The translations under genes and the position numbers were made by a program. Under the pieces are notes generated by a model. That model had not been told where the DNA came from. It worked only from the letters and a program-made list of their open reading frames with translations, and did no database searches. From Cyanobium sp. CH-040 (GTDB lineage Bacteria > Cyanobacteriota > Cyanobacteriia > PCC-6307 > Cyanobiaceae), in contig NZ_JAGQCJ010000009.1 in NCBI RefSeq assembly GCF_024346135.1, positions 1 through 64,000 of the forward strand: DNA of 64,000 bases, written 5' to 3'. How positions within the stretch are numbered: position 1 is the stretch's first letter; each line of letters begins with the position of its first letter. This document shows positions 8,959 through 28,857 of this stretch, one piece after another.

Positions 8959-11274
<2,316 letters not shown>

Positions 11275-16986: not shown

Positions 16987-17048
16987 GCGGCGGGCGGCAA
17001 CGGTCAGCGGCGATAGGTTGAGGTTGATGGCAGCTGGAGGAATCAGCC

Positions 17049-18095
17049 ATGGATTCCCTCATCCCACTCGGCCACCCCGCTGGCAGCGGCGATCGCGCCC
17101 CGTCCCGTCCCGGGGCCGTCCCGGCCCCGCCCCTGCTGCTCTCGGCCGGCGTCGACGCCGACCCCGCCCGGGCCGCTGATGGGGCCCTGGCGGCGCTGCT
17201 GGAGTGGCGCCGCGTCCAGCTGCAGCGGATCCTGGGCGAGCGCATCGGCCTGCTGCGCCGCCCCTTCAGAGGGGCTGGCCGCAAGGCCAGGGCCGACGAC
17301 CGCGAGCAGGTGCACCAGCTGCGCACCGGCCTGCGGCGACTGCGCTCGATGGCCGAAGCCTTCCCCCGCCACTGGCGCGGGCCCTCGGCAAAAAGCCTAC
17401 GCAAGCTGGCCCGCGCCGCCGGCGAGGTGCGCGACCTGGATGTGCTGCTGGAGACCCTGGAGGAGCACCAGCGCGAGATGGGCGGGGGCGAGCGGCGGCG
17501 GTTGGGGCGCCTGATCGACCGGCTGCAGACGGTGCGCTGCCGGGGGCGCCGCCAGCTCAGCCGGCGGCTGCGCCGGCTGCCCAGGGGTCTCGCACCCGCC
17601 CCGAAGCCGCCGCAGAGCCCGGAAGCCGCCAGCGACGTCCATCAAGGCGCCCTGCCGCTGCTGCGGGCCGGCCTCATCCGCCAGCTGGCGGAGCTGCGCC
17701 TGCATCCGGGCTGGGGGGATGGCCGCCGGCCGGCCCGCGGCAGCCGCCGGGAGCGGGATCAGCACGAACTGCGCAAGGCCTTCAAGCGGCTGCGCTATCA
17801 GCTGGAGGTGCTCGAGGCCCTGGAGCCGGCCCTGCGCGACCGGCTGGTGCTGCTCAAGCGCACCCAGGACAGCCTGGGGCTGCTCCAGGACCTGGTGATC
17901 TGGCGGCCGCTGCTCAAGCAGCACCTGGAAGGTCGCCTCAAGCGCCGGCTGCCGGCCCTGGCCGCCCGCTGGCGGCGGCAGGCCGATGGCGCCTGGGCCG
18001 ACTGGCTGGAGCTGCGCCGCCAGTGGCTGGATCCGGCCACCGGCCTGGAGGCCTGGCAGCGCTGGCTGCTGGAGCTGGAGAGCACCGCCGCCTGA
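17049..18095 (+). CDS. CHAD domain-containing protein
   Basis: CHAD (conserved histidine alpha-helical domain) proteins bind polyphosphate and often associate with polyphosphate granules (family knowledge). The 348-residue protein is almost wholly helical and very Arg-rich, with the two characteristic segments: REQVHQLRTGLRRLRSMAEAF (about residues 85-105) and DQHELRKAFKRLRYQLEVLEAL (about 237-258). Both hold the conserved His followed by Arg/Lys helices that line the polyanion pore. No CYTH triphosphatase domain is fused. ATG 17049 is supported by GGAGG at about 17035. It lies 62 bp after clpB in the same direction. Confidence 0.85.
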   Translation: MDSLIPLGHPAGSGDRAPSRPGAVPAPPLLLSAGVDADPARAADGALAALLEWRRVQLQRILGERIGLLRRPFRGAGRKARADDREQVHQLRTGLRRLRSMAEAFPRHWRGPSAKSLRKLARAAGEVRDLDVLLETLEEHQREMGGGERRRLGRLIDRLQTVRCRGRRQLSRRLRRLPRGLAPAPKPPQSPEAASDVHQGALPLLRAGLIRQLAELRLHPGWGDGRRPARGSRRERDQHELRKAFKRLRYQLEVLEALEPALRDRLVLLKRTQDSLGLLQDLVIWRPLLKQHLEGRLKRRLPALAARWRRQADGAWADWLELRRQWLDPATGLEAWQRWLLELESTAA

Positions 18096-18151
18096 CCTCG
18101 GCCCAGCCACCCCGGAGCGTCCACGAGCAGCATCGGCCCGAGGCTGAACGA

Positions 18152-18994
18152 TCAGTCGAACAGGTCGGGTTCGGTCACGATCACGTCCTCCCAGAGGGTC
18201 TGGAAGTTGAGCCAGCCCGCCTGCGGCGTGGCGGTGTGCTCACGGGTGTATTCCGCCCACTCGCGGCGGATCAGCTGGGGCGTGCCGGCGGCTTCGGCCA
18301 GCAGCTGGCACTGGCAGGCGCGCTCCATGGCGATGAACCAGTAGGCCGCTTCCTCCACGGTGTGCCCCACCGTGAACAGGCCGTGGTTCTGGTGGATCGC
18401 CGCCTTGCCGCGGCTGAAGGCGGCGGCGAAGCGCCGGCCGGCCTCCTCCTCCAGCACCACCTTGCCGCCGTCCTCTCGCACCAGCACGTGGTCCTCGAAG
18501 AACATGCAGCTGTCCTGACTGATCGGATCCACCAGCCGCCCCAGGCTGGCGAAGGCCTTGCCGTGGGGCGAGTGGGCGTGGGCGGCGGCCTGCACCTCCG
18601 GCCGGCTGGCATGGAGGGCCGCGTGCAGCACGAAGGCCGCCCGGTTCACCGGCCAGTGGCCGATCACCACCTCGCCGGCGTGGTTCACCAGCAGCAGATC
18701 GCTCACCTTCAGGCGGCGGAAGCAGCGGGCGAAGGGATTGACCCAGAAGTGATCGGGAAATTCCGGATCGCGCACGGTGATGTGGCCAGCCACCCCCTCG
18801 CCGAAGCCCAGCCGGCCGAAGATCCGCAGGGCCGCCACCAGCCGCTCCTGGCGGTGGCGGCGCTCCAGCTCCGGCGTTTCGAACACCGGCGGTGCGAGCG
18901 TCTGCAGCGGTTTGGGGGTGAGCGGCACGCCGCCGATGCAGGGAACCGCTGCGGACGGGCCGGCGGCGGCGGAAGGGCTGTTGGCGACGGTCAC
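18152..18994 (-). CDS. Class II aldolase/adducin family protein
   Basis: Zn-dependent class II aldolase/adducin head domain of about 280 residues; the exact aldol substrate is unknown. The fold signature is present: GFGEGVAGHITVRDPE near residue 70, the first metal-ligand pair in AHAHSPHGKAFA, the catalytic acidic segment ISQDSCMFFEDH and the third histidine in HQNHGLFTVGHTVEEA. I chose GTG at 18994. A start at 19066 is also open but would overlap the divergent transporter gene by 46 bp and add a low-complexity tail. The protein ends WEDVIVTEPDLFD. It is divergent from the EamA transporter. Confidence 0.88.
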   Translation of the reverse strand: MTVANSPSAAAGPSAAVPCIGGVPLTPKPLQTLAPPVFETPELERRHRQERLVAALRIFGRLGFGEGVAGHITVRDPEFPDHFWVNPFARCFRRLKVSDLLLVNHAGEVVIGHWPVNRAAFVLHAALHASRPEVQAAAHAHSPHGKAFASLGRLVDPISQDSCMFFEDHVLVREDGGKVVLEEEAGRRFAAAFSRGKAAIHQNHGLFTVGHTVEEAAYWFIAMERACQCQLLAEAAGTPQLIRREWAEYTREHTATPQAGWLNFQTLWEDVIVTEPDLFD

Positions 18995-19020
18995 GGGGCG
19001 GCGCTCACCCGGAGGGGCCC

Positions 19021-20001
19021 ATGCTGACAGAGCCGAACCGGCTTGGCAGACCGCCCGCACCGCCACCGATGCTCACAGGGGTTCCATGGTTGTGGCTGAC
19101 GCTCGGCACCGCCCTCGGTGAAACCGTGCGCGACCTCTGCCTGCGCACGGTGCTGCGCCGCTCCGGCTGGAGCACCCTGCGGGTGATCGGCATCAGCAGC
19201 GGCCTGGCGGGCCTGCTGCTGCTGCCGCTGCTGCTCAGCCGGCCGCCGGTGGTCAACCTGCCCGCGTTCGCGGCGGCCCTGCTGCTGGGCGGCAGCCTCA
19301 ACGCCCTGGCCTTCTGGTGCTACGGCCGGGCCATCGCCCTGGAGGATCTCAGCCTGGTGCTGCCCCTGATCAACCTCTCGCCCCTGGCCCTGCTGCTGGC
19401 GGGGTGGTGGGTGCTGGGCGAACGGCCCGGTCCGCTGGCGGTGCTGGGGGTGGCCCTGCTGGTGCTCGGGGCCCTGCTGCTCGGCCAGCCCCGCAGCCGG
19501 ACGGGAGCGGAGGGCTGGGGCCTGGCGCGTCTCTGGTCCAGTCCCGGCTGCCGCGCCATGCTGCTGGTGGCGTTGCTCTGGGGCATCGGCGCCAGCGTCG
19601 ACAAGCTGGGGGTGAGGGCCGGCGGCAGCGTCGCCTGGGTGCTGGCCCTGCAGCTGAGCATCGGCAGCAGCCTGCTCGCTCTGTCGCTGCGGGAACCGCG
19701 CCGGCCATCCCGGAGCCGCAGGCCGAAGCCGGCGGGGGCAGGCCCCCTGGCCGTGGCGCCGGTGATGGTTGTCGCCCTGGTTCTGGCGGCCCTTGCCCTG
19801 GCCGCCGGAACGGTGCTGCAGATGGAGGCGATCCGGCAGACGGCGGTGGTGCACGTGATCGCCATCAAGCGGCTGAGCACGCTGCTGGGCAGCGGCGCCG
19901 GCGTGCTGGCCCTGGGCGAGGCCGATGGACTGCGACGCCTCACGGCCGCCGGCCTGATGCTGCTCGGCGCCGCCACGGTGCTGCGGGGCGCGATGGGCTG
20001 A
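19021..20001 (+). CDS. EamA/DMT-superfamily transporter
   Basis: Inner-membrane drug/metabolite-type exporter with about ten transmembrane helices in two EamA repeats (about residues 20-160 and 180-325). The helices are plain in the sequence, for example LAGLLLLPLLLSR, FAAALLLGGSLNALAFW, LAVLGVALLVLGALLLG, VMVVALVLAALALAAG and LTAAGLMLLGAATVLRG. A basic cytoplasmic loop (REPRRPSRSRRPKPAG) separates helices in the second half. ATG 19021 has a strong GGAGGGG site 5 bp upstream; a second ATG at 19069 would also give a full transporter. The substrate cannot be read from the sequence. It is divergent from the aldolase, with 26 bp between the chosen starts. Confidence 0.88.
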   Translation: MLTEPNRLGRPPAPPPMLTGVPWLWLTLGTALGETVRDLCLRTVLRRSGWSTLRVIGISSGLAGLLLLPLLLSRPPVVNLPAFAAALLLGGSLNALAFWCYGRAIALEDLSLVLPLINLSPLALLLAGWWVLGERPGPLAVLGVALLVLGALLLGQPRSRTGAEGWGLARLWSSPGCRAMLLVALLWGIGASVDKLGVRAGGSVAWVLALQLSIGSSLLALSLREPRRPSRSRRPKPAGAGPLAVAPVMVVALVLAALALAAGTVLQMEAIRQTAVVHVIAIKRLSTLLGSGAGVLALGEADGLRRLTAAGLMLLGAATVLRGAMG

Positions 20002-20053
20002 TCCCCAGCCAGGCTGGAAGGCCCTCTCCCACCACGGACCTCTGCCGCCTGCC

Positions 20054-21055
20054 ATGCCCTCCCTGCCCCGGCCCCGCCGCATCCTGATCACCGGCGCCAG
20101 CTCGGGCATCGGCCTGCAGGCGACCGCGCAGCTGATGGTTGCCGGCCACCGGCTGACCCTGCCCTGCCGCGATCCGCAGCGGGCCGCTGCCACCACCGCC
20201 CGCCTCATCCCCCGCCTCGCCGACGCAGCCGGCGGCGGCCCCGAGCCCCAGGCGCCGGTGTGCGACCTGGCCGATCTGGAGAGCGTGAACCGCTGCGCCG
20301 ACGCCCTGCTGCGCAAAGGCGAGCCGATCGACACCCTGGTGCTCAATGCCGGCCTGCAGTACACCGGCGCCCGCGAGCCACAGCGCTCGGCCCAGGGGCA
20401 TGAGCTCACCATCGCCGTGAACCACCTGGCCCACCAGCTGCTGGCGGTGCGCCTGCTGCCCCTGCTGCAGGGCGGCCGGGAGCCGCGGGTGGTGGTGACG
20501 GCCTCGGAGGTGCACGATCCCGTCAGCCCCGGCGGGCGGGTGGGTCGGCCCGCCGGCCTGGGCGACCTGAGCGGCCTGCGCCGGGGGCCCGACTTCGCGA
20601 TGGTCGATGGGGTGTCGCCCTTCGATGCCGACAAGGCCTACAAGGACAGCAAGCTCTGCAACCTGCTGTTCGCCCGGCGGCTGCAGCAGCGGTTGCAGGA
20701 GCAGGGACACCACTGGCCGGTGATCGCCTGGAGCCCGGGCCTGGTGATCCCGCGCGGCAGCGACGGCTTCTTCCGCTACAGCCGCCGGCACAACGAAGCC
20801 GGCCAGCGCCTGTTCGCCCTGGTGGCGCGCGATCTGCTGCGGCTCACCGAAACCGTGGAGCGGGCCGGGGCGCTGCTGGCGGGTCTGGCCACCGATCCGG
20901 CTCACGCCGAGCCGGGCTTCCGCTACTGGAGCAACCGGGTGCTGGGGCCGGGCCGGCGCCGCTTCGAAGCGGTGGATCCCAGCGCCGAGGCCCGCGACGA
21001 CGCCCTGGCCGCCAGCCTCTGGGAGCTCAGCGCAGGACTGGTGGGACTGGCCTGA
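20054..21055 (+). CDS. Protochlorophyllide-reductase-like short-chain dehydrogenase
   Basis: SDR-superfamily protein of 333 residues with clear relationship to light-dependent protochlorophyllide oxidoreductase (LPOR). The NADPH motif is ILITGASSGIGLQA (residues 10-23). The LPOR-type catalytic segment KAYKDSKLCNLLFARRL (Tyr196, Lys200, Cys202) is preserved, as are a LGDLSGL segment before it and the C-terminal RYWSNR and LWELSAGLVGL blocks, which match LPOR's 'HWSWGNR' and 'WELSAKLVGL'. It differs in the region after the catalytic Lys (LVIPRGSDGFF in place of CVADTPLFRN) and in its N-terminal half, so it may be a paralogue of the true enzyme. It probably acts on a tetrapyrrole or a similar hydrophobic substrate in the cytoplasm. 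Confidence 0.8.
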   Translation: MPSLPRPRRILITGASSGIGLQATAQLMVAGHRLTLPCRDPQRAAATTARLIPRLADAAGGGPEPQAPVCDLADLESVNRCADALLRKGEPIDTLVLNAGLQYTGAREPQRSAQGHELTIAVNHLAHQLLAVRLLPLLQGGREPRVVVTASEVHDPVSPGGRVGRPAGLGDLSGLRRGPDFAMVDGVSPFDADKAYKDSKLCNLLFARRLQQRLQEQGHHWPVIAWSPGLVIPRGSDGFFRYSRRHNEAGQRLFALVARDLLRLTETVERAGALLAGLATDPAHAEPGFRYWSNRVLGPGRRRFEAVDPSAEARDDALAASLWELSAGLVGLA

Positions 21056-21059
21056 GCCC

Positions 21060-21347
21060 TCAGCCGGCCAGCTGGTCGATGCGCTGGGCCAGTTGCACGT
21101 CGAGGTTGGAGAGACCGCCGGTGTCGTGGGTGGTGAGATCGATCGTCACCCGGTTCCACACATTGCTCCACTCGGGATGGTGGCCCAGGGTCTCGGCCGC
21201 CAGGGCCACCTTGGCCATGAACCCGAAGGCCTCGGTGAAGTCGGCGAAGCTGAGCTGCCGGTGCAGCTTGCCCTCCCTGAGGCTCCAGGCTGGCAGGGAG
21301 GAGGGCAGCGCGTTGATCTGCTCGGGGGTGAGGGGCGTGGCGGCCAT
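21060..21347 (-). CDS. phhB: Pterin-4a-carbinolamine dehydratase
   Basis: Dehydrates 4a-hydroxytetrahydropterin and so recycles pterin cofactors; cyanobacteria often keep the gene without phenylalanine hydroxylase. ATG 21347 gives 95 residues, the usual size; a start at 21362 adds five. The active-site signature is intact: [17 protein letters not shown] (His56, His57, Trp60), and the helix motif [16 protein letters not shown] precedes it. The end, [22 protein letters not shown], is typical of the family. It lies just after the convergent POR-like gene (4 bp between stop codons). Confidence 0.92.
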
Positions 21348-21422
21348 CGTCGGGCGGAACACGGAGCGGCGCCATGGTGGCGCATCCGCCGGCGGGGCTG
21401 ACCGCGGCTGCCGGCCCGGTGC

Positions 21423-21773
21423 TCAGAGGCTCGGCCCGAACAGGATCGGCCGGCCGGTGAGCGCCGCATCCTTGGCGGTACTCCAGCGCACCCGGCAGCG
21501 GAAGCTGCGCTCAGCAGGCTCCCCCAGCCGCTCGTAGTGCATGGTGGTGACGACGGCGCCGGCCGGCCGCTGAGCCTGGGCCCGGTTGCAGGCATCCACC
21601 GGCGAGATCAGGGAGCTGACCTCCACCTCCCCGCTCTGCGCAGCGGGCGCTTCCTCGGCCCGCAGCGGCAGGGGGCTCAGCAGCGACGCGGCACAGATCA
21701 GGACGGCAGGCACCGCTGCGGTCCGGGGTGTTGACAGGGGCGGGGAAGCCATCGGCCGGCGGCAGGAAGGCAT
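21423..21773 (-). CDS. Secreted hypothetical protein, ~116 aa
   Basis: Probable exported protein of unknown function. From ATG 21773 (alternative ATG 21752) it has a signal peptide (hydrophobic core TAAVPAVLICAASLLSPLPL, cleavage after LRA-EEAP). The mature domain of about 75 residues has two cysteines (DACNRAQ and FRCRVRW) that could form a disulfide, and strands such as TTMHYERLGEPAERSFRCRV. The frame stays open further upstream, but that part has no coding character and holds the triple 16-bp repeat, which therefore lies in the upstream region of this gene. Confidence 0.6.
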   Translation of the reverse strand: MPSCRRPMASPPLSTPRTAAVPAVLICAASLLSPLPLRAEEAPAAQSGEVEVSSLISPVDACNRAQAQRPAGAVVTTMHYERLGEPAERSFRCRVRWSTAKDAALTGRPILFGPSL

Positions 21774-21861
21774 GACCCTAGGCATAGCGCCTCCGGTGAA
21801 GGGCACCTGGGGCCATGGCCAGCCTGGGGCCATGAGAGCGACCACTCCGCGGGCCAGGTCC

Positions 21862-21909
21862 GTCGGTGGTCGTTCCTGTCGGTGGTCGTTCCTGTCGGTG
21901 GTCGTTCCT
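21862..21909. repeat. Three perfect tandem copies of a 16-bp unit
   Basis: The unit GTCGGTGGTCGTTCCT occurs three times without mismatch at 21862-21877, 21878-21893 and 21894-21909. It lies between two minus-strand genes (21423-21773 and 21943-22182), about 90-135 bp upstream of the secreted-protein start. There is no spacer, so it is not a CRISPR array. It could be binding-site iterons or a minisatellite. Confidence 0.92.
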
Positions 21910-21942
21910 GCCCTGGCGATCCCTGTCAGGCTGTCTCGCGGA

Positions 21943-22182
21943 TCAGGACAGACGCCCTCTGAGGGCCGGCATGTCACTGCCGAGCACCTCCTCCAGCAGC
22001 CCCTGGATGTGGTGCAGGTCGTTGCGCAGGTCGGTCGCCAGATCGCGGATGGAGTCCTCGCTCTCCTCGTCGAGATCGCGGCTGTCAAATCGCTCCACCC
22101 TCTGCTGGGCGGTCGCCCTGGCCTGCTCGAGCCGGCGCACGATCTCCTCGAGCAGATCCTGGCTCACGGACGTGGATGACAT
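21943..22182 (-). CDS. Small acidic coiled-coil hypothetical protein, 79 aa
   Basis: The protein from ATG 22182 is soluble, charged and helical. It starts MSSTSVSQDLLEEIVRRLEQ, has an acid-rich middle (RDLDEESEDSIRDLATDLRND) and ends HHIQGLLEEVLGSDMPALRG. Heptad-like spacing of Leu/Ile/Val suggests a coiled coil or helical hairpin. I recognise no family and assign no function. The frame continues upstream to 22449, but that part reads as noncoding AT-richer sequence. Confidence 0.6.
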   Translation of the reverse strand: MSSTSVSQDLLEEIVRRLEQARATAQQRVERFDSRDLDEESEDSIRDLATDLRNDLHHIQGLLEEVLGSDMPALRGRLS

Positions 22183-22550
22183 GGCCGTCGGGGATGGACA
22201 TCCCTCCACTGTGCCTCGCCCACGGTGTCTGGGCCCACGCTGGCTGGCAGGCCGTTGCTCCGGATTGAGCAGCCCTGCAGCACTGGCTGCAGTCGGCGGG
22301 ACGTTGACAGCACAGGGGTTTGGGGTATGGCGGAAATAACGGATGCGCTCACGCTTCCGATCCAAATTACACACTGGACCATCACGCTGCGCACCGATCG
22401 TCTGTGGCGATCTGCGCATCAATGCTGGACCAGGGAGTGCATCGGGCACCTTCTGATTTCGTCCGGAACCGGATAGCAGGCCCGTTCAAGTCGGACCGTG
22501 CCTGGCCGTATCCGCCGTTGTATTGAAACTGTATTCAAGGAGTAACGATC
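22183..22550. other. 368-bp noncoding region, AT-richer than surroundings
   Basis: No convincing gene is seen here. The sequence is visibly richer in A/T than most of the window. It contains an inverted repeat TCCGG-AA-CCGGA at 22462-22473 and, near the right end, a TTGTATTGAAACTGTATT stretch followed by AAGGAG (22538-22543), the ribosome site of the coiled-coil gene at 22551. It probably holds divergent promoters for the 79-aa and 116-aa genes. Confidence 0.55.
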
Positions 22551-22901
22551 ATGAACACCAGCACAGAGATGTCTGTGGCCCGTAGCGAGCAGGAAGAGCT
22601 GCGCCGGGCCAATGAACAGCTCCGCCAGGCCATCCTCGACAAGAAAGAGGCGCAGATCCAAGCCTGGTCTGCCCAGATCGAGCAGGTCCAGCAGAGCCTG
22701 AACAGCGTTGCCGAAAGCGTTCGCGACGAAACCGGGAAACGACTTGCCGAGCTGCGCCAGGCCCGTGATCAGGCCCGCGCTCAGCTCGACACGCTTCAGC
22801 AGGCCTCCCAGGACAGCTGGGCATCCCTGCTTCAGCAGAGCGACGGTTTCTTCCAGGAGCTGTCCAGGCACTTCCACGAGTTTGTGGTCGAGCACACCTG
22901 A
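22551..22901 (+). CDS. Coiled-coil hypothetical protein, 116 aa
   Basis: Almost entirely helical and hydrophilic protein: Gln, Glu, Ala, Arg and Leu dominate and heptads run from residue 12 (EQEELRRANEQLRQAILDKK) to about residue 100. The end, SLLQQSDGFFQELSRHFHEF, is more aromatic and could form an interaction surface. There is no signal peptide or membrane helix. It has one of the best ribosome sites in the region (AAGGAG, 7 bp before ATG 22551), suggesting good expression. I know no family; phasin-like, scaffold or structural roles are guesses. It lies in an AT-richer, probably acquired stretch. Confidence 0.7.
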   Translation: MNTSTEMSVARSEQEELRRANEQLRQAILDKKEAQIQAWSAQIEQVQQSLNSVAESVRDETGKRLAELRQARDQARAQLDTLQQASQDSWASLLQQSDGFFQELSRHFHEFVVEHT

Positions 22902-23003
22902 GAGGGTGCCGAACGCTTTCCAGGTCATCAACATCCAGGTTTTCAACTTCCAAGTCCCGAACACCCGTTTACTCAACACAGGTTCATATCGCCTCGATCA
23001 GAT

Positions 23004-23657
23004 ATGCATTTAATCCCCATTCAGACTGAACATCATGACAGTGTGTTTGACTGCTACCAGGCCCTGCGCAGTCCATCCACACCCCGTAGTCCGGCCGGCA
23101 TCACCGAGGCCCTCCTGCCGGAGATCAGCAATTCGTTCTGGCTGCTGGTGACCAGCAATGCGGTGATCGACGCTCAGGACACCCAGGCCCTGCGGATGAT
23201 CCTTGCTCGGGCGCTCCCCAGGGGCGTCTCGGTGGCTCTGGATGTGACCTGGCAACCGCAGCGCTGGAGCCTGCCCGAGCGGAGCGCACCCACCGCCGAG
23301 GTGCTGCGCCGCTTCCGGCCTCTGTCGCAGGCTGCCCAGCTGATCCGCTGCACACGCGGGGAAGCCGAGGCCTTCTTCGGCAGCGACGATCCGGTGCGGG
23401 TCCATGAAACCCTGGCCCAGCGGCCGGCCGTGCTCATCAGCGGTCCGGCCGGCGGTCTCGACTGGTGCATCGGCGGACGCCGGGGGCGCCTGGACCCCTC
23501 GATGCTGCAGGACCACGCTGTCTTCCTGGCGCGTCTCCTGGACAACCTCTGCACCCAGCCCCAGCTGCTCGGCAGTGCCGGCCCCGGCATCGATGCCGTC
23601 GCAGACCCTGACGGACTTGCCGAGCAGCTGCTCATCGCAGCCGGATGCGCCAGCTGA
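23004..23657 (+). CDS. Truncated PfkB-like sugar-kinase homologue
   Basis: The 217-residue product resembles only the central part of PfkB/ribokinase-family kinases: VSVALDVTWQPQRWS corresponds to the strand with 'DPNxRPxLW', AAQLIRCTRGEAEAFFG to the 'AdilKlneeEaeaLfG' segment, and PAVLISGPAGGLDWCIGGRRG to the 'vvvTlGeeGa' strand. The N-terminal substrate lid with the GG motif and the C-terminal DTxGAGD anion-hole motif, both needed for catalysis, are absent. Normal length is about 300-340 residues. It is therefore a remnant or a repurposed fold, not an active kinase. The N-terminal 30 residues (HLIPIQTEHHDSVFDCYQAL) look unrelated. It starts in AT-richer DNA 102 bp after the coiled-coil gene. 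Confidence 0.55.
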   Translation: MHLIPIQTEHHDSVFDCYQALRSPSTPRSPAGITEALLPEISNSFWLLVTSNAVIDAQDTQALRMILARALPRGVSVALDVTWQPQRWSLPERSAPTAEVLRRFRPLSQAAQLIRCTRGEAEAFFGSDDPVRVHETLAQRPAVLISGPAGGLDWCIGGRRGRLDPSMLQDHAVFLARLLDNLCTQPQLLGSAGPGIDAVADPDGLAEQLLIAAGCAS

Positions 23658-23696
23658 GCCAGGGCCTGCAACCGCTTGGGATGAGGCCCCTGGCCG

Positions 23697-25406
23697 TCAG
23701 GGCGCGGTGAGGGGCGGTTGCTTCCCCTCCCACGTCCTGCGCAATTCGGCACTGGTGACTTGGGCCTCGCGCAGGCGTCCCTGCCCGCGCAGGCTCCTGG
23801 CCAACCCATCCAGAGACCAGCCGTTGGCAGGGAAGCGCTTCAGATCCTCACGGAAGATCCGTTCAGCAGCGGCATCCTCACCCACCTCCAGAAGAAAGAC
23901 ACCGAAGTCCTGGCGGACGGGAACCGTCCATTCCGGTGGTTCGCCATAGACCATCCCGTCCTCCAGCGACACCGCATGGATGAAGTGCCTCCTGGCCGAA
24001 CGGACATCCCCGTCCGCTGCGGCGAGATGGGCCTCCAGCACATCGGCGGCGATGGCCAGCACGGTGCCGGAGGTGTTGAATTCCAGGCGCTGGGCTGACA
24101 GCTCGGGATCGCCAGCCAGGGCCCGCAGGTCCGCCAGCCGTCGGCGGGCCTCCTCCAGCTCCCCCCGGGCGATGAGCGCACGACCGCGGGCATAGGCCCA
24201 GAGCCCGCGGGCATGTCCGAGGTCTGCCGCAGGGGCCGGTTCGGCCAGGATCGACTCCCATTGCGAGAACCGCACCTTCATCTGCAGATGCCGGGTGCGG
24301 TGATGCTGCAGGAAGGTCATGCCCGGGGCGCGCAGCATCTCCTTTGGGGAGAGGGTGCGCATCGTCTCGGTGGCGGCAAGGGCCTGGTCGCGCAGGCCGA
24401 TCATGCTGGCCGCGAAGGCCAGGAAATCATAATTGTGAGGATAATATCCCGCCAGGTACATTCCGAAGCCAGGCCGTTGATCGCGGATGTAGGTTTCGTC
24501 GGCATGGATGGCGTGTTCATTGGCCGTGATCGCATCGCGATACCGCCCTACCCTCACATAGATGTGGCCAGGCATGTGCACGATGTGTCCTGCCCCGGGC
24601 ATCAAGCCCGCCAGGCGTTCGGCGGCTTGCACGGCCCGTTCGGGATGCACCTCCTCGATGGCATGGATATAGAAGTGATTGGCTCCAGGATGGTTGGGTG
24701 CGGTCTGCAGAACGGTCTCGAGTTGCTGCAGGATCTCTCCCGTGGTCTCCCGCGCTGAGCCGTCTTTGTTCCAGTAGTGCCAGGGGCTCAGATTCATCAG
24801 CGCCTCCACATGGAGCGTGCGGAGATCCATGTCGTCGGGATACCTGCTGACCAGCTGCCGCAGGGCCTCGGCCCAGGCGGCATCAAGACTGCTCCGTTCC
24901 TCCGCAGGATCGGCCACGTAGCGCACGGAGAGGGCCTGGATCAGATCCCGCTCCTTCGCGGAGGCCGACGCCAGCGTCGCGCGTGCCCGCTGCAGGGCGG
25001 CCCAGGCCATCAGCCCCGCCTCGCGGTCCATCGGCAGATTGATGTTGGGGCCCCATGCCAGCGCTTCGCCCCAGTGGCAGAGCGCACAGGAGGGGTCGAG
25101 GGCGGCGGCATGGCGGAAGGCCCGGATGGCTTCCTGGTGGTTGAACGCGTAGTAGAGACGCAGCCCCTGATCGAAGTAGGCCTGAGCCCGGGGATCCCGG
25201 ATCGAGAGGGGGTAGTGGTGCGAGCCGAGGTTGTCGTAGAGGGGGGGCTCCTGAACCTGGGCGAGGCTGAAGGGTGCCGCCAGGACGAGTCCCGCCAGCA
25301 GGGGCACCAGCGTTCTGAGCGCCACCGGAGGGGCTCCCGTGTTGCCACTCCGCAGGATCTCGTCTCCACTCAGCAGGATTTCTGGCTTTTCTGCGTGCAC
25401 CTGCAT
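23697..25406 (-). CDS. Exported tetratricopeptide-repeat protein, 569 aa
   Basis: A large helical-repeat protein of unknown role, probably exported. ATG 25406 is preceded by GGGAGG, which favours it, although this leaves a 28-residue N-region before the hydrophobic core (LRTLVPLLAGLVLAAPFSLA); GTG 25325 would give a more ordinary signal peptide. After the signal come TPR-type helices (AQAYFDQGLRLYYAFNHQEAIRAFRHAAALDP) and the motif CALCHWGEALAWGPNINLPM (Cys107, Cys110, His111). A central HFYIHAIEEVHPERAVQAAERLAGLMPGAGHIVHMPGHIY block is rich in His and typical of this TPR family. More TPRs run to the end. Cys-X-X-Cys-His also matches a c-type heme motif, but in the family I recall the position after the second Cys as variable. 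Confidence 0.78.
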   Translation of the reverse strand: MQVHAEKPEILLSGDEILRSGNTGAPPVALRTLVPLLAGLVLAAPFSLAQVQEPPLYDNLGSHHYPLSIRDPRAQAYFDQGLRLYYAFNHQEAIRAFRHAAALDPSCALCHWGEALAWGPNINLPMDREAGLMAWAALQRARATLASASAKERDLIQALSVRYVADPAEERSSLDAAWAEALRQLVSRYPDDMDLRTLHVEALMNLSPWHYWNKDGSARETTGEILQQLETVLQTAPNHPGANHFYIHAIEEVHPERAVQAAERLAGLMPGAGHIVHMPGHIYVRVGRYRDAITANEHAIHADETYIRDQRPGFGMYLAGYYPHNYDFLAFAASMIGLRDQALAATETMRTLSPKEMLRAPGMTFLQHHRTRHLQMKVRFSQWESILAEPAPAADLGHARGLWAYARGRALIARGELEEARRRLADLRALAGDPELSAQRLEFNTSGTVLAIAADVLEAHLAAADGDVRSARRHFIHAVSLEDGMVYGEPPEWTVPVRQDFGVFLLEVGEDAAAERIFREDLKRFPANGWSLDGLARSLRGQGRLREAQVTSAELRRTWEGKQPPLTAP

Positions 25407-25635
25407 CCTCTGTCCTCCCGAGGCTGCAGGTCACTCCGCAGCTCTCTGCATCCGTCTATGTCTCAAGGCTGCACTTGTCCCTTGAACGGATGCACCTGAT
25501 GGCTGCAGTGGACAAAAATCTTCACTCCACCGGCTGCCACCCTGATCACGGGGGAGGACTCATGAGGACTCATCTTCTGAGCACTTCTGCTCATGATTCC
25601 CTGGGGTGCCGCCTCCGGGCGTGGACACTGGCCGC

Positions 25636-26814
25636 TCAGGCCTTTCCGGAGGCTTCGAGCCGGCTGGCGACACCCCGGCAGCCGCCCGGCAGGGTGCGGC
25701 GGGAACGGGCGCCGCTCCAGGCGGCCAGATAGTGCTGGGCCTGGGGGTCGAGCTGACGCACGCCGCTGAAGTTGGCGTTCTCCACGATCGCGCCGGTGCC
25801 GTGACCGCTCTCGTGATCCACCGGGCCTGGGGCCCCGGCCGGACTGGCGGTGGCGACCCGGCCCAGGAAGAACAAGGTGCCATCGAGCAGGGCACCGTCC
25901 AGATCGGCACCGGCGAGGTTGGCCCCGGCCAGGTTCGCCTCGCGCAGGTCGGCGCCGGCGAGGTTCGCGCCCCTCAGGTCGGCGCCGTTGAAATCGACGC
26001 CGCGCAGGTCGGTGCCCGAGAGGTCGGCTCCCTTGAGCACCTGCTGCAGCCGGATCACGGGAACGCCCTGGCGGCGGTCCTCCTCGTAGTTCCCCTCGCC
26101 GTCGAGGATCGCGCGGCCAAGCCGCAGATCCCGGCGCAGCGGGGTGAGCAGGCGGGCATGGGAGAGGAAGCGCAGGATCCGCGCCCGGCCCTCCCGGTCG
26201 ATGCTGCCCATCACCGCCGCCAGCCGTCCCTCCGCCAGCATCCGCTCCAGGGGCCAGTCCTCCAGCAGGCCCTCCTCGTCGACGATCAGCTCGGAGATCC
26301 CGTGGATGAAGCTGTCGATCGTCTGGGCCTGGGTGATGCGGTTCTGCTGACTGGTGAGCCGCTGGTCGATCATCACCTGCCGCCAGGCGATCGCCAGGGC
26401 CACCAGCGCCACCAGGATCTGGCCGATGGCACCGATCACCCCCTCGCCGATGGCGCCGATCGCCTCCCAGTTGCGGCTGCGGTAGATCTCCAGCAGCGGG
26501 TCCCACCAGCCCAGGGCCAGCGGCACGGCCAGGGCCGCCACCAGCAGGCCCAGCACCGCCAGCACGCGGGTGGTGGGCACGTCGTCCAGACGCCCGGCGA
26601 GCACGCGCCAGAACGGAGGCAGCAGCTGCGCCAGGGCCAGGGCGATGGTGACCAGGGCGGCGGGGAGGGCCAGCCAGCGCCAGTGCAGCAGCAGGGCCGC
26701 CAGGGTGGTGACGCTGGCGACCAGCAACTGCAGGGAGGCCGACTGGTTGAGACGGCTCAGGCGGCTGCGGGACTGGAAGGGGGGCACCGCAGGCGTGTCG
26801 GCCGGGGAGGTCAT
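25636..26814 (-). CDS. Membrane protein with pentapeptide repeats
   Basis: Integral membrane protein of 392 residues. Three or four hydrophobic helices lie in the first 150 residues (LQLLVASVTTLAALLLHW, LALPAALVTIALALAQLL, VLAVLGLLVAALAVPLALG, IGQILVALVALAIAWRQV). A cytoplasmic helical linker follows, then a run of pentapeptide repeats A(D/N)LxG/x at about residues 285-335 (LKGADLSGTDLRGVDFNGAD and on to LAGADLDGALLDG). This forms a short right-handed quadrilateral beta-helix of about ten repeats. Such membrane-linked pentapeptide proteins are frequent in cyanobacteria; their function is unknown. It is convergent with the EamA side of nothing nearby and stands 57 bp before the exchanger gene stop. 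Confidence 0.82.
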   Translation of the reverse strand: MTSPADTPAVPPFQSRSRLSRLNQSASLQLLVASVTTLAALLLHWRWLALPAALVTIALALAQLLPPFWRVLAGRLDDVPTTRVLAVLGLLVAALAVPLALGWWDPLLEIYRSRNWEAIGAIGEGVIGAIGQILVALVALAIAWRQVMIDQRLTSQQNRITQAQTIDSFIHGISELIVDEEGLLEDWPLERMLAEGRLAAVMGSIDREGRARILRFLSHARLLTPLRRDLRLGRAILDGEGNYEEDRRQGVPVIRLQQVLKGADLSGTDLRGVDFNGADLRGANLAGADLREANLAGANLAGADLDGALLDGTLFFLGRVATASPAGAPGPVDHESGHGTGAIVENANFSGVRQLDPQAQHYLAAWSGARSRRTLPGGCRGVASRLEASGKA

Positions 26815-26871
26815 CCGATGCCAGGAGCCGGGGGCTGCTTGTGAGGGCCGTTCAGCATGATCGAGATGGGC

Positions 26872-27951
26872 CTAGGCCAGCGCACCGGTCTGGAAGAAGA
26901 ACCCTGCCGCCAGGATCACGTAGGCGGCCAGCAGCAGGGCCCCCTCGAGCCAGTCGGAGCGTCCGTCGAGGCTCACCAGGTTGCTCACCACCACGGCGGT
27001 GATCACCGCCACGAGCTCATAGAGATCGAAGCGCAGATCCAGGGGATGGCCGAGCCAGGGACCCACCAGCACCAGCACCGGCACCACCAGCAGGGCCACC
27101 AGCAGGGTGGAGCCAAGCGCCACCGACACCGCCAGATCCATCTTGTCCTTGCGGGCCATCGAGACGGCCGTGAGGTACTCCGCCACGCCGCCCAGCAGCG
27201 GCAGCAGGATCACGCCGGTGAACACGGCCGAAAGCCCCAGCCTGCCGGTGACGGTCTCCACCACCCCGACGAACAGCTCCGATTCCACGGCGATGCCCAC
27301 CGTGGCGCCCGCCAGCACCGCCAGCCAGGGCAGCAGCGGCGGCCGCCGGTGCTCATGCTCCGGGGCCTCCGGCTCCAGGTCCGCTTCCGCCACCTCGTAG
27401 AGGGTGCGGTGGGTGCCGAGCGAGAACAGCAGCGTCAGGCCGTACACCACCAGCATCACGCAGGCCACGAACAGCGAGAACTCCTCACGGCCCTCGGCGC
27501 CGCCCAGGGTGGCCAGGCTCGGCAGCAGGATCGCCAGCACGGCCAGGGTCATCGCCGATCCGTTCACCCGGGCCACCACCGGCTGGAAGCGCTGCTCGCT
27601 GCGGCCGACGCCGCCCACCACCATCGCCAGGCCGAGGGCCAGCAGCAGGTTGGCGGTGATCGTGCCGGTGATGCTCGCCTTGACGATGTCCACCAGGCCG
27701 GCTTTGAGGGCCACCAGGGCGATGATCAGTTCGGTGGCGTTGCCGAACACGGCGTTGAGCAGGGCGCCGATCGCAGGACCCAGGGTGATCGCCAGCTCCT
27801 CGGTGGCGGTGCTCAGCCACACCGCCAGGGGAACGATGGCGGCCACGGAGGTGAGAAACACGGCCGTTTCTCCCCACTGCAGATGCTCCGCCGCCAGTGA
27901 CACGGGCACCATCACCAGCAGGCCGATGGCCAGGGCGTTGCGGGCGGACAT
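26872..27951 (-). CDS. Ca2+/H+ exchanger (CaCA/CAX family)
   Basis: Proton-coupled calcium (or other cation) exporter of the CAX/ChaA family with about 11 membrane helices. ATG 27951 gives 359 residues, the family length; an upstream frame to 28029 adds a non-hydrophobic tail. The first alpha-repeat has GNATELIIALVALK (about residues 63-76) and the second has LLPLLGGVAEYLTAVSMARKDKMDLAVSVALGS, both with the conserved acidic residue in a polar membrane helix. Between the repeats is an acidic loop (EVAEADLEPEAPEHEHRR), as in cyanobacterial members. Probable location: cytoplasmic or thylakoid membrane. Confidence 0.93.
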   Translation of the reverse strand: MSARNALAIGLLVMVPVSLAAEHLQWGETAVFLTSVAAIVPLAVWLSTATEELAITLGPAIGALLNAVFGNATELIIALVALKAGLVDIVKASITGTITANLLLALGLAMVVGGVGRSEQRFQPVVARVNGSAMTLAVLAILLPSLATLGGAEGREEFSLFVACVMLVVYGLTLLFSLGTHRTLYEVAEADLEPEAPEHEHRRPPLLPWLAVLAGATVGIAVESELFVGVVETVTGRLGLSAVFTGVILLPLLGGVAEYLTAVSMARKDKMDLAVSVALGSTLLVALLVVPVLVLVGPWLGHPLDLRFDLYELVAVITAVVVSNLVSLDGRSDWLEGALLLAAYVILAAGFFFQTGALA

Positions 27952-28088
27952 GCGGGAGCACGGCACTGGCCACCATTGTGAGCCGCGCGGATGAACGGGC
28001 CTGCACGGCTGCCCTGCGCCATGCATCACGACTGCATCCCTGAGGTGATCCGATGGGGCCGTGAACGGAGCCGATCCGGCCGGACCCC

Positions 28089-28541
28089 TCAGGCTCCCAT
28101 CAGGTGCAGGCTCAGCCGGCGGCGATGGCTGCGGGCCCGGTGCTCCCAGAGGTACACCGCCTGCCAGGTACCGAGCAGCAGCCGCCCGCGCTGGAAGCTC
28201 AGCTGCAGGCTGGTGGCGGTGAGGGCGGTGCGGATGTGGGCCGGCATGTCGTCGGGCCCCTCGTCATCGTGGGCATAGCGCTGCCGCTCCCCTTCGCCGC
28301 TCAGCGAGCGGAAGCCCTGTGCCGGCACCAGCGCGCGCAGGTAGGCGGCCAGGTCGTGGAGCACACGCGGATCGGCGTTCTCGTTGATGGTGAGGGAGCA
28401 GCTGGTGTGCTGGCAGACCAGCGTGGCCACCCCTAGATCCAGCCCGCTGGCTGCGATCTCCCGGTTCAGGGCGGCGGTGAGGTCGGTGAAGCCCTCGGCG
28501 GAGGTGGTGACCTCGAGCAGGTGCAGGTTCTGGCACAGCAT
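28089..28541 (-). CDS. yjbQ: YjbQ/UPF0047 family protein (secondary thiamine-phosphate synthase-like)
   Basis: Small trimeric enzyme-like protein; members have weak thiamine-phosphate synthase activity in E. coli tests, but the real role is unclear. ATG 28541 gives 150 residues (ATG 28565 would add eight). The family signature is complete: LVCQHTSCSLTINENADPRVLHDL (with His, Thr/Ser and Asn residues), then the YAHDDEGPDDMPAHIRTAL block with conserved Asp and His, and GRLLLGTWQAVYLWEHRA at the end. It is divergent from the small secreted protein at 28606. Confidence 0.93.
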   Translation of the reverse strand: MLCQNLHLLEVTTSAEGFTDLTAALNREIAASGLDLGVATLVCQHTSCSLTINENADPRVLHDLAAYLRALVPAQGFRSLSGEGERQRYAHDDEGPDDMPAHIRTALTATSLQLSFQRGRLLLGTWQAVYLWEHRARSHRRRLSLHLMGA

Positions 28542-28605
28542 CGCGACAGCGCGGGCAGCCCCCATGGTGATGCTCCCTAGCATCACTCCAGCGTGTCGTC
28601 GGCCC

Positions 28606-28857
28606 ATGCTCTCCATCGCCAACAAGGTCGCTCTCGGCCTCGCCGCCACCGCTCTGTCCCTCATGGCCACCCCGGCCCTGGCCCAGCGGGAGGTGCCCAA
28701 GCTCGGCATCATCTGCCCCCTGGGCTACGTGGATCTGCTCAACGGCAAGTGCAGCACCCTGGGGCTGGCGAACTACACCGTGCGGCCCACCTACGGGAAG
28801 GCATGCCCCGAGGGCTGGATGAACGTGGGCGGCCGCTACTGCCGCAAGAAATGGTGA
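28606..28857 (+). CDS. Small secreted cysteine-containing protein, 83 aa
   Basis: The product from ATG 28606 has a signal peptide (NKVALGLAATALSLMATPALA, cleavage before QREVP). The mature part of about 57 residues has four cysteines in the pattern ICPLGY-x-GKCSTL-x-KACPEGW-x-YCRKKW, suggesting two disulfides. It probably acts in the periplasm or lumen. The two CP(L/E)G units look like an internal duplication. No function is known to me. The frame is open upstream but overlaps yjbQ, so the later ATG is chosen. Confidence 0.72.
   Translation: MLSIANKVALGLAATALSLMATPALAQREVPKLGIICPLGYVDLLNGKCSTLGLANYTVRPTYGKACPEGWMNVGGRYCRKKW

Follow-up and report, generated by a model that had tools for sequence, protein, structure and literature searches.

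The sequence considered here, a 64,000-nucleotide stretch of the Cyanobium sp. CH-040 genome (hereafter, the window), carries a coiled-coil gene and a kinase-derived gene on the same strand, preceded by a noncoding region and accompanied by a tandem repeat and several accessory genes. The features are listed below by position and strand, with the ground for each assignment in parentheses.

21673–28088, no strand: islet absent from related genomes (comparison of flanks with relatives)
21862–21910, no strand: 16-bp repeat GTCGGTGGTCGTTCCT, 3.1 perfect copies (tandem-array search)
21943–22182, minus: 79-aa gene, no family assigned (open reading frame)
22304–22331, plus: likely promoter, TTGACA at 22304–22309 and TATGGC at 22326–22331, 16-bp spacer (fixed geometry across copies)
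22338–22550, plus: predicted 5' leader of about 213 nt (inferred start 6 nt after the −10 hexamer)
22340–22347, plus: predicted 5' arm of an end-to-end helix, CGGATGCG (complementarity, folding, permutation test)
22507–22514, plus: predicted 3' arm of the same helix, CGTATCCG (complementarity, folding, permutation test)
22537–22542, plus: ribosome-binding site AAGGAG, 8 nt before the coiled-coil ATG (sequence)
22551–22901, plus: sll1863-family coiled-coil stress protein, 116 aa (NF052504)
23004–23657, plus: PfkB-derived pseudokinase, 217 aa (fold match; GAGD and N-terminal part missing)
23697–25406, minus: TPR protein, 569 aa (Pfam TPR_19 and TPR_2 above cut-off)
25636–26814, minus: pentapeptide-repeat protein, 392 aa (PF00805, 78.3 bits)
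26872–28029, minus: Na/Ca exchanger family protein (PF01699, 132.8 bits)

An acquired islet and its accessory genes

Comparison with relatives delimits an islet of about 6.4 kb (~21673–28088), the left edge of which is fixed to ~50 bp. Fifteen of 19 related loci lack it and have the flanking genes close together, none contains it, and four were not judged. In three genomes (G489, G501, and G520) the match to the window runs from 20500 up to 21672, 21636, and 21632, respectively, and resumes at 28089, with 124, 201, and 182 bp in place of the islet; nine of ten further loci also lack it. The window copy of the gene pair sits in this composite islet, between a pterin dehydratase gene and a gene that we take to be YjbQ-like.

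A preliminary description made from the sequence alone had proposed an acquired or decaying islet at 21774–25635, distinct in composition from the rest of the window. In non-overlapping 1-kb windows, GC content averages 0.714 (sd 0.034) and is lowest, at 0.612, in 22001–23000; the AT-richer noncoding region that had been described (22183–22550, 368 bp) has a GC content of 0.609. The codon index is 0.454–0.475 for the coiled-coil, kinase, and TPR genes vs. 0.597–0.790 in eight reference genes of the window, and an ordinary flanking gene (28089–28712) also has an index of just 0.520. The compositional difference is confirmed. Because none of the related loci compared carries the islet and a compositional shift is present, acquisition is supported, and the stretch is an inserted islet. 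Its end is not at 25635, as it also takes in the pentapeptide and exchanger genes, whose GC content is ordinary (0.728 and 0.699) and which would therefore be missed by composition alone. In each of 12 loci measured, one of them the window's, GC content is lower over the 400 bp preceding the coiled-coil match than in the sequence around; low GC is in part intrinsic to the module.

No tRNA gene that could serve as an attachment site was found in the window, and no recombinase was found by Pfam among the six islet proteins and three neighbors. A phage origin was also considered and rejected: relatives of either protein of the pair were encoded in none of 75 and 146 pattern-matched stretches of a viral collection.

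The 16-bp repeat, correctly described as triple, is the highest-scoring tandem array in the window and occurs at no other place in the 2.9-Mb genome with up to two mismatches allowed. Matches to the 79-aa gene are found in only two of 201 genomes including its own, G054 having two places (58–60% identical). The TPR gene, which like the truncated kinase gene lies where it had been placed, has copies 80–81% identical in G090 and G113 and any match at all in six of 121 genomes, its own among them; its product is putatively secreted, judging from a hydrophobic N-terminus. Full-length relatives (62–75%) of the pentapeptide protein occur in nine of 24 genomes searched, and the exchanger and pentapeptide genes are also neighbors in nine further loci (L095, L105–L112).

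A coiled-coil gene paired with a pseudokinase

The coiled-coil protein scores 53.7 bits against NCBIfam NF052504, for which the curated cut-off is 35, and its AlphaFold2 model consists of three helices (mean pLDDT 83.1). The very good ribosome site first noted for it is the AAGGAG listed above. Comparison of genomes indicates that an sll1863-type gene directly upstream of a pseudokinase gene recurs in Synechococcus/Cyanobium, mostly at different chromosomal sites: of 28 coiled-coil loci, 25, among them that of the window, have a kinase match on the same strand in the flanking sequence covered (three partial). Taken from the kinase side, the pairing is not strict: the coiled-coil gene is missing from four of 14 named loci, and another has just a distant relative on the opposite strand. 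Across the class, none of the best 30 loci of the sll1863 family has the kinase alongside (tblastn E ≤ 1e-3, flanks ≤ 1.5 kb). The main text of a WH5701 expression paper (PMC12834511) does not contain the words kinase, hypothetical, coiled, or “unknown function,” the pair's genes are not named in passages of the SynAce01 paper (PMC6337551), and in literature listings we noticed no paper about the leader or about cyanobacterial PfkB pseudokinases.

The model of the window pseudokinase (pLDDT 85.2) has fructokinase 3ljs as its best solved match (Z 16.1, 184 residues, rmsd 2.7), with further matches to the ATP-bound fructokinase 3lki and to chains of the plastid RNA polymerase complex. Its sequence can be aligned with the genome's own full-length PfkB kinase, and in that alignment ~100 residues are missing, corresponding to the N-terminal sugar-binding part with its GG motif. 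PF00294 is not matched by the window protein (E ≤ 1) or by five truncated relatives (E ≤ 0.1), and is matched by the N-terminally complete relatives L100 and L097. The catalytic GAGD is absent from all 21 pseudokinases compared, the window protein included, and the N-terminal part is missing from 19 of them as well; GAGD is present in the genome's own full-length kinase and in all 19 full-length relatives (12 by count, seven read as DSTGAGD or DATGAGD). These comparisons show that the pseudokinase has a common origin with the PfkB sugar kinase of the cell itself and has kept the kinase core, minus GAGD and, mostly, minus the N-terminal part.

That the kinase fragment is a decaying pseudogene and the islet neutral cargo is very unlikely. 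Such decay would fit the loss of motif and domain, the low codon index, and the existence of cut copies (L089, L151, L169, and a fragment in G102). However, the 21 pseudokinases form one group in the tree (100/100), with the 19 N-truncated forms as a single group nested inside it (100/100); dN/dS is 0.13–0.51 among pairs with dN under 0.32, and a conserved tail of its own, near GNAGPGxDAxADPD, marks the truncated clade. The aligned copies were chosen as open frames, and openness alone is weak proof. With these shared losses, a coiled-coil protein that belongs to a named stress family, and a noncoding stretch with a likely promoter and with leader ends that vary in concert from copy to copy, the pair looks maintained by selection, and the “decaying” half of the original proposal is not supported.

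Likely promoter and predicted leader of the gene pair

Fixed geometry across copies suggests that the 368-bp noncoding region likely holds a promoter and the ~213-nt leader. Of 17 copies examined, 11 have TTGACA exactly 36 nt ahead of a CGGAYG-type motif, which takes a variant form in two of the 11. The exact promoter pattern gives ten hits in 16 genomes, six of them at this gene pair (backward control, two). A regulon sharing the pattern was considered and rejected, as three of the four hits off the pair are alike (probably one conserved stretch) and the other is single. The 21 leaders used have in common a predicted start 6 nt past the −10 hexamer, and leader length ranges from 204 to 322 nt; no recognizable leader of this kind was found in G035b, WH5701b, G083a, or L174.

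The first nucleotides of the predicted mRNA are complementary, in 21 copies, to a segment shortly ahead of the ribosome site, roughly 15–50 nt before the ATG. When each leader's 5' end is matched with its own 3' end, pairing is far better than when ends are swapped between leaders (z −6.4; 0 of 20,000 permutations as good), in a test that was not blind, the 5' anchors being hand-placed and the complementarity partly seen beforehand. Control windows further upstream gave z −0.84 to +0.99 in the same test. Clades have different sets of arms (AACGGA/TCCGTT vs. CTGGAAC/GTTCCAG), and comparison indicates that they change together, with compensating changes in many copies.

RNAalifold predicted no pairs on the full MAFFT alignment of leaders; in alignment A6 the share of paired cells was not above shuffles (125/500), and the covariation score stood at 17/500. 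Single leaders are not significant alone, with 5 of 60 shuffles attaining the value of the window and 11 of 60 that of G030, and whole-leader folds of G113 and G533 barely form the helix (sums 0.3 and 0.4). For the window copy, the best fold is a local hairpin on the 5' arm (probability 0.5–0.6), with the long-range helix at ~0.4. In this copy the hairpin at the leader 5' end truly competes with the helix. A role for the helix as a translation switch was rejected in silico, mean exposure of the ribosome site being barely altered (0.54 with the helix vs. 0.52 without); single copies such as G530a, at 0.61 with and 0.40 without, are exceptions.

The arms could instead be DNA sites of one regulator, the first serving as operator at the start site and the second as its inverted counterpart ahead of the gene, changing together as the regulator changes. 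The motif sits at the predicted start site with fixed spacing to the promoter, a placement frequent for operators, but complementarity extends past the core by copy-specific lengths, with G-U pairs and bulges, and three pairs are changed on both sides, which makes this reading unlikely. We consider it very unlikely that the region yields a separate small RNA with paired ends and that the coiled-coil gene is transcribed from a promoter of its own. Stand-alone structured RNAs typically have paired ends, and the leader is long; against this, most copies have a ribosome-site-like GGAG between the 3' arm and the ATG, no long T-run was seen by eye after the 3' arm in the leaders inspected, and Rfam 15 gave no match in the window (gathering level), in 22200–23010 (up to E 5), or in 13 related loci (gathering level).

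A candidate stress module and its known counterparts

Our main reading, to which we give a probability of about 0.5, is that the islet core is a two-gene stress module, in which the leader shields the mRNA end and a non-catalytic kinase fold serves as partner or regulator. Under salt or other stress, the promoter and leader would make the coiled-coil protein strongly expressed. The helix between the leader ends would protect the mRNA 5' end against 5'-end-dependent decay and keep the ribosome site accessible, and the pseudokinase, no longer phosphorylating sugar, would bind and tune a partner, which may be the coiled-coil protein, the parent kinase, or a nucleotide. Possible, if on the improbable side, is a variant in which a pseudokinase with an altered nucleotide- or sugar-binding role acts as sensor and the coiled-coil protein as effector: the Rossmann-like core is modeled with high confidence and the solved relatives include ATP-bound 3lki and the plastid RNA polymerase chains, set against the loss of GAGD in every pseudokinase compared. 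Rather doubtful is the broader idea of a new picocyanobacterial stress unit, in which a new leader class, with the first nucleotides of the mRNA locked onto the flank of the ribosome site, would control a general stress protein and also a new non-catalytic sugar-kinase family, which would signal carbon or energy status to that protein.

The frequent presence of a degraded sugar kinase as partner may give a handle on what sll1863-type proteins do; the forms that keep the whole length without the catalytic motif would make a clear example of an enzyme that has become a partner, and the leader would be a compact, testable RNA element.

Four known systems invite comparison. A passage in PMC8670252 places Sll1862 and Sll1863 of Synechocystis among the most strongly salt-induced proteins, of unknown function, and tells of unpublished work in which strains with sll1862 and sll1863 inactivated were not salt-sensitive. 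Like Sll1863 and the NF052504 family, the window protein is short, helical, and above the curated cut-off; it differs in being paired with a PfkB pseudokinase. The pseudokinase resembles PfkB carbohydrate kinases (fructokinase, PF00294) in its fold and in its alignable sequence, and departs from them in lacking GAGD, the N-terminal part, and a PF00294 match. Chains of PEP structures match its model at Z about 14 (fold matches only, 11–14% identity), and these chains are presumably the FRUCTOKINASE-LIKE proteins. Those proteins are longer and plastid-located, and form part of an RNA polymerase. In a passage of PMC3409070, plastid FRUCTOKINASE-LIKE 1/2 are described as PfkB-type proteins of the PEP complex whose role is unknown and suspected to be regulatory. 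Yeast Gal3p, treated in the same source, is likewise a sugar-kinase-like regulator without catalysis, but it belongs to the galactokinase family and is evolutionarily distinct (PMC3409070).

Absence of the islet from related genomes

The preliminary description placed an AT-richer accessory segment at 21774-25635, as expected for an acquired or decaying islet. All the features it named were found at their positions, within a region summarized here.

21673-28088 (approximate): islet with 16-bp repeat and 79-aa, coiled-coil, pseudokinase, TPR, pentapeptide and exchanger genes
21943-22182: 79-aa gene; two relatives, both in genome G054 (201 genomes searched)
22338-22550: leader, the predicted 5' part of the mRNA, behind a likely promoter
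22551-22901: sll1863-type coiled-coil gene
23004-23657: PfkB-derived pseudokinase gene

The compositional shift was borne out by 1-kb windows, as 22001-23000 has the lowest GC content of the 64 kb (0.612; mean 0.714, sd 0.034). A second AT-richer kilobase lies at 10001-11000 (GC 0.637). Codon use agreed in part: the coiled-coil, kinase and TPR genes depart from the window's eight reference genes, but an ordinary flanking gene is also low (0.520). The triple 16-bp repeat is perfect and occurs at a single place in the genome, even with up to two mismatches allowed.

Gene order in relatives differed, with the islet absent from 15 of 19 loci, present in none, and four loci unjudged. Window 20500-28700 was compared with nine further genomes of the genus. 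In G489, G501 and G520, whose flanks are 81-87% identical to the window, matches stop at 21672, 21636 and 21632, respectively, and restart at 28089, with 124, 201 and 182 bp between; in G474, G511 and G529, 535, 217 and 232 bp separate the dehydratase side from the 28.1-kb side. G537, G544 and G551 had a strong match for one side alone and were left out of judgement. The pterin dehydratase gene is present in all 24 other genomes searched, and ten of these loci were compared. In nine (L113-L121) it is followed, without the islet, by a YjbQ-like gene 31-1019 bp away; in the tenth (L122), left out of judgement, the YjbQ-like gene was unmatched. The gene at the right flank of the islet we take to be YjbQ-like. 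The stretch from clpB to pterin dehydratase (window 17000-21055) is likewise variable among relatives.

The islet is composite, because GC content is 0.61-0.68 in its left part vs. 0.728 in the pentapeptide gene and 0.699 in the exchanger gene. The latter two lie side by side in nine other loci; in G037 this pair (L095:3347-7517) directly adjoins the coiled-coil/kinase pair; at the corresponding place in the sister locus, G077 has a gap of ~140 bp (L094:7755-7898). No recombinase was found among the proteins tested, and no tRNA within the window.

Linkage of the coiled-coil and pseudokinase genes

The coiled-coil protein was classified by NCBIfam as an sll1863-family stress protein (53.7 bits, cut-off 35), a profile exceeding its cut-off in 81 of 388 genomes of the class. 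Within the taxonomic family, own genome counted, the window protein itself was matched in 10 of 121 genomes and the profile (E <= 1e-8) in 20 of 400. According to PMC8670252, Sll1863 and Sll1862 of Synechocystis react to many stresses and are 13.3-fold and 9.9-fold more abundant, respectively, in salt-acclimated cells; unpublished work related there found no salt-sensitive phenotype upon their inactivation. More tables appear in PMC6789579 and PMC3516471.

A same-strand kinase match flanks the coiled-coil gene in 25 of 28 loci from a profile search (partial in L150, L151 and L169), with none in the flanks of L174, L175 and L177. Among 14 named kinase loci, filed under Synechococcus, Cyanobium and, in one case, "Cyanobacteria bacterium," an upstream coiled-coil gene is found in nine and none in four, while L135 has a distant coiled-coil relative on the opposite strand. 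Strain CS-1330 kept the kinase and, relative to a sister locus, has 17 bp in place of 287 bp that hold most of the coiled-coil gene. The pairing is therefore strong but not obligatory. Module sites mostly differ between genomes, common flanks being limited to pairs such as G099/G030, G077/G037, G035b/G106 and G072a/G076b.

In strain WH 5701 the module occurs twice, at sites ~17 kb apart; one copy has a leader and the other lacks it (L123, L130). G530, which has a third copy with a partial kinase match (L151), is probably the same strain; the coiled-coil genes lie at identical contig coordinates. On contig 23 of G076 (L089:6583-10949) the coiled-coil gene precedes a cut-off kinase, and ~3.3 kb beyond is another kinase remnant, similar to the long form of SynAce01. 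An HSP20 gene is convergent to the module in G099 (L092:9264-9830).

Close relatives of the kinase fragment (45-68% identity) occur in ten other genomes of the 121 searched, and an eleventh (G102) has a 55-residue fragment; full-length PfkB kinases match at 20-43%, with some match in 94 of the 121. Aligned with the genome's own full-length kinase, the window protein lacks ~100 residues near the N-terminus and the GAGD motif, which is present in all 19 full-length relatives (12 as DTTGAGD-like forms, by script; seven as DSTGAGD or DATGAGD, from the printout). Four g6 genomes (L162-L165) and one SynAce01 copy (L097/L135) keep the N-terminal part and lack GAGD. In a maximum-likelihood tree of 41 proteins, midpoint-rooted for drawing only, the 21 pseudokinases form one group (100/100) with the 19 truncated ones nested within (100/100). 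The two long forms branch first, although the fork separating them is supported at 94/73 and the SynAce01 form is a flagged long branch. We infer that catalysis was likely lost first and the N-terminal domain later.

Comparison of coding sequences establishes purifying selection on the pseudokinase; pairs with dN < 0.32 have dN/dS of 0.13-0.51 (Nei-Gojobori), the lowest value coming from near-saturated synonymous sites. A conserved tail near GNAGPGxDAxADPD is particular to the truncated clade. The best AlphaFold2 model has a mean pLDDT of 85.2 (five models span 60.7-85.2), and its best solved structure match is a Xylella fructokinase (Z 16.1); plastid RNA polymerase complex chains match as well (Z ~14).

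Likely promoter and complementary leader ends

TTGACA lies exactly 36 nt 5' of a CGGAYG-type motif in 11 of 17 copies, two of the 11 having a variant motif. In 21 leaders, with anchors set by hand and inferred start sites, a -10-like TANNNT hexamer ends 6 nt before the 5' arm; the window hexamer ends in C. Probable duplicates were counted once each: G530 and WH 5701, and likewise G502 and G479 with CS-1329 and bin.51, which they seem to be from their matches. The leader was unrecognised in G035b, WH5701b, G083a and L174. In G072a (L086:6180-7790), left out of the 21, a transposase-related ORF (PF13808) splits the leader and first codons from the remaining coiled-coil gene; promoter and leader look intact.

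When leaders are folded singly, their first 12 nt pair with the final 48 nt upstream of the ATG, giving a pairing sum of 77.0 over 11 leaders (60 shuffles: mean 14.3, maximum 35.9). Single leaders are often not significant, with shuffles as good in 5/60 for the window and 11/60 for G030. A local hairpin is slightly favoured in the window copy (0.5-0.6 vs. ~0.4 for the long-range helix), and long-range pairing is hardly predicted in G113 and G533. In alignment A6, where G099 and G030 look misaligned, 77.4% of cells are paired vs. 24-56% when slid, and three pairs have changes on both sides; in paired share the alignment does not stand out from shuffles (125/500), of which 17/500 reach its covariation score. 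RNAalifold found no pairs in the whole alignment.

Swapping 3' ends gave sums as good in 228 of 20,000 permutations for the first 11 leaders and in 0 of 100,000 for 19. For 21 leaders, the own sum is -309.9 kcal/mol against a permuted mean of -225.7 (sd 13.2; 0/20,000 as good), and control windows at least 31 nt before the ATG gave no signal (z -0.84 to +0.99). Fifteen representative leaders gave z -5.0 (0/20,000; controls -1.25 to +0.42). Permutation leaves some effect of relatedness: four g6 genomes probably have in common a single change from AACGGA/TCCGTT to CTGGAAC/GTTCCAG.

Proposed working of the module

Sequence comparison establishes the leader-end complementarity, the gene linkage and the loss of the catalytic motif. 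The helix would hide the mRNA 5' end: in silico it leaves the mean exposure of the ribosome site unchanged (0.54 vs. 0.52), and a stress-protein mRNA would benefit from slow decay. By analogy, the pseudokinase would bind a partner or act as a sensor; PMC3409070 describes such a role for Gal3p and raises it as a possibility for FLN proteins of plants.
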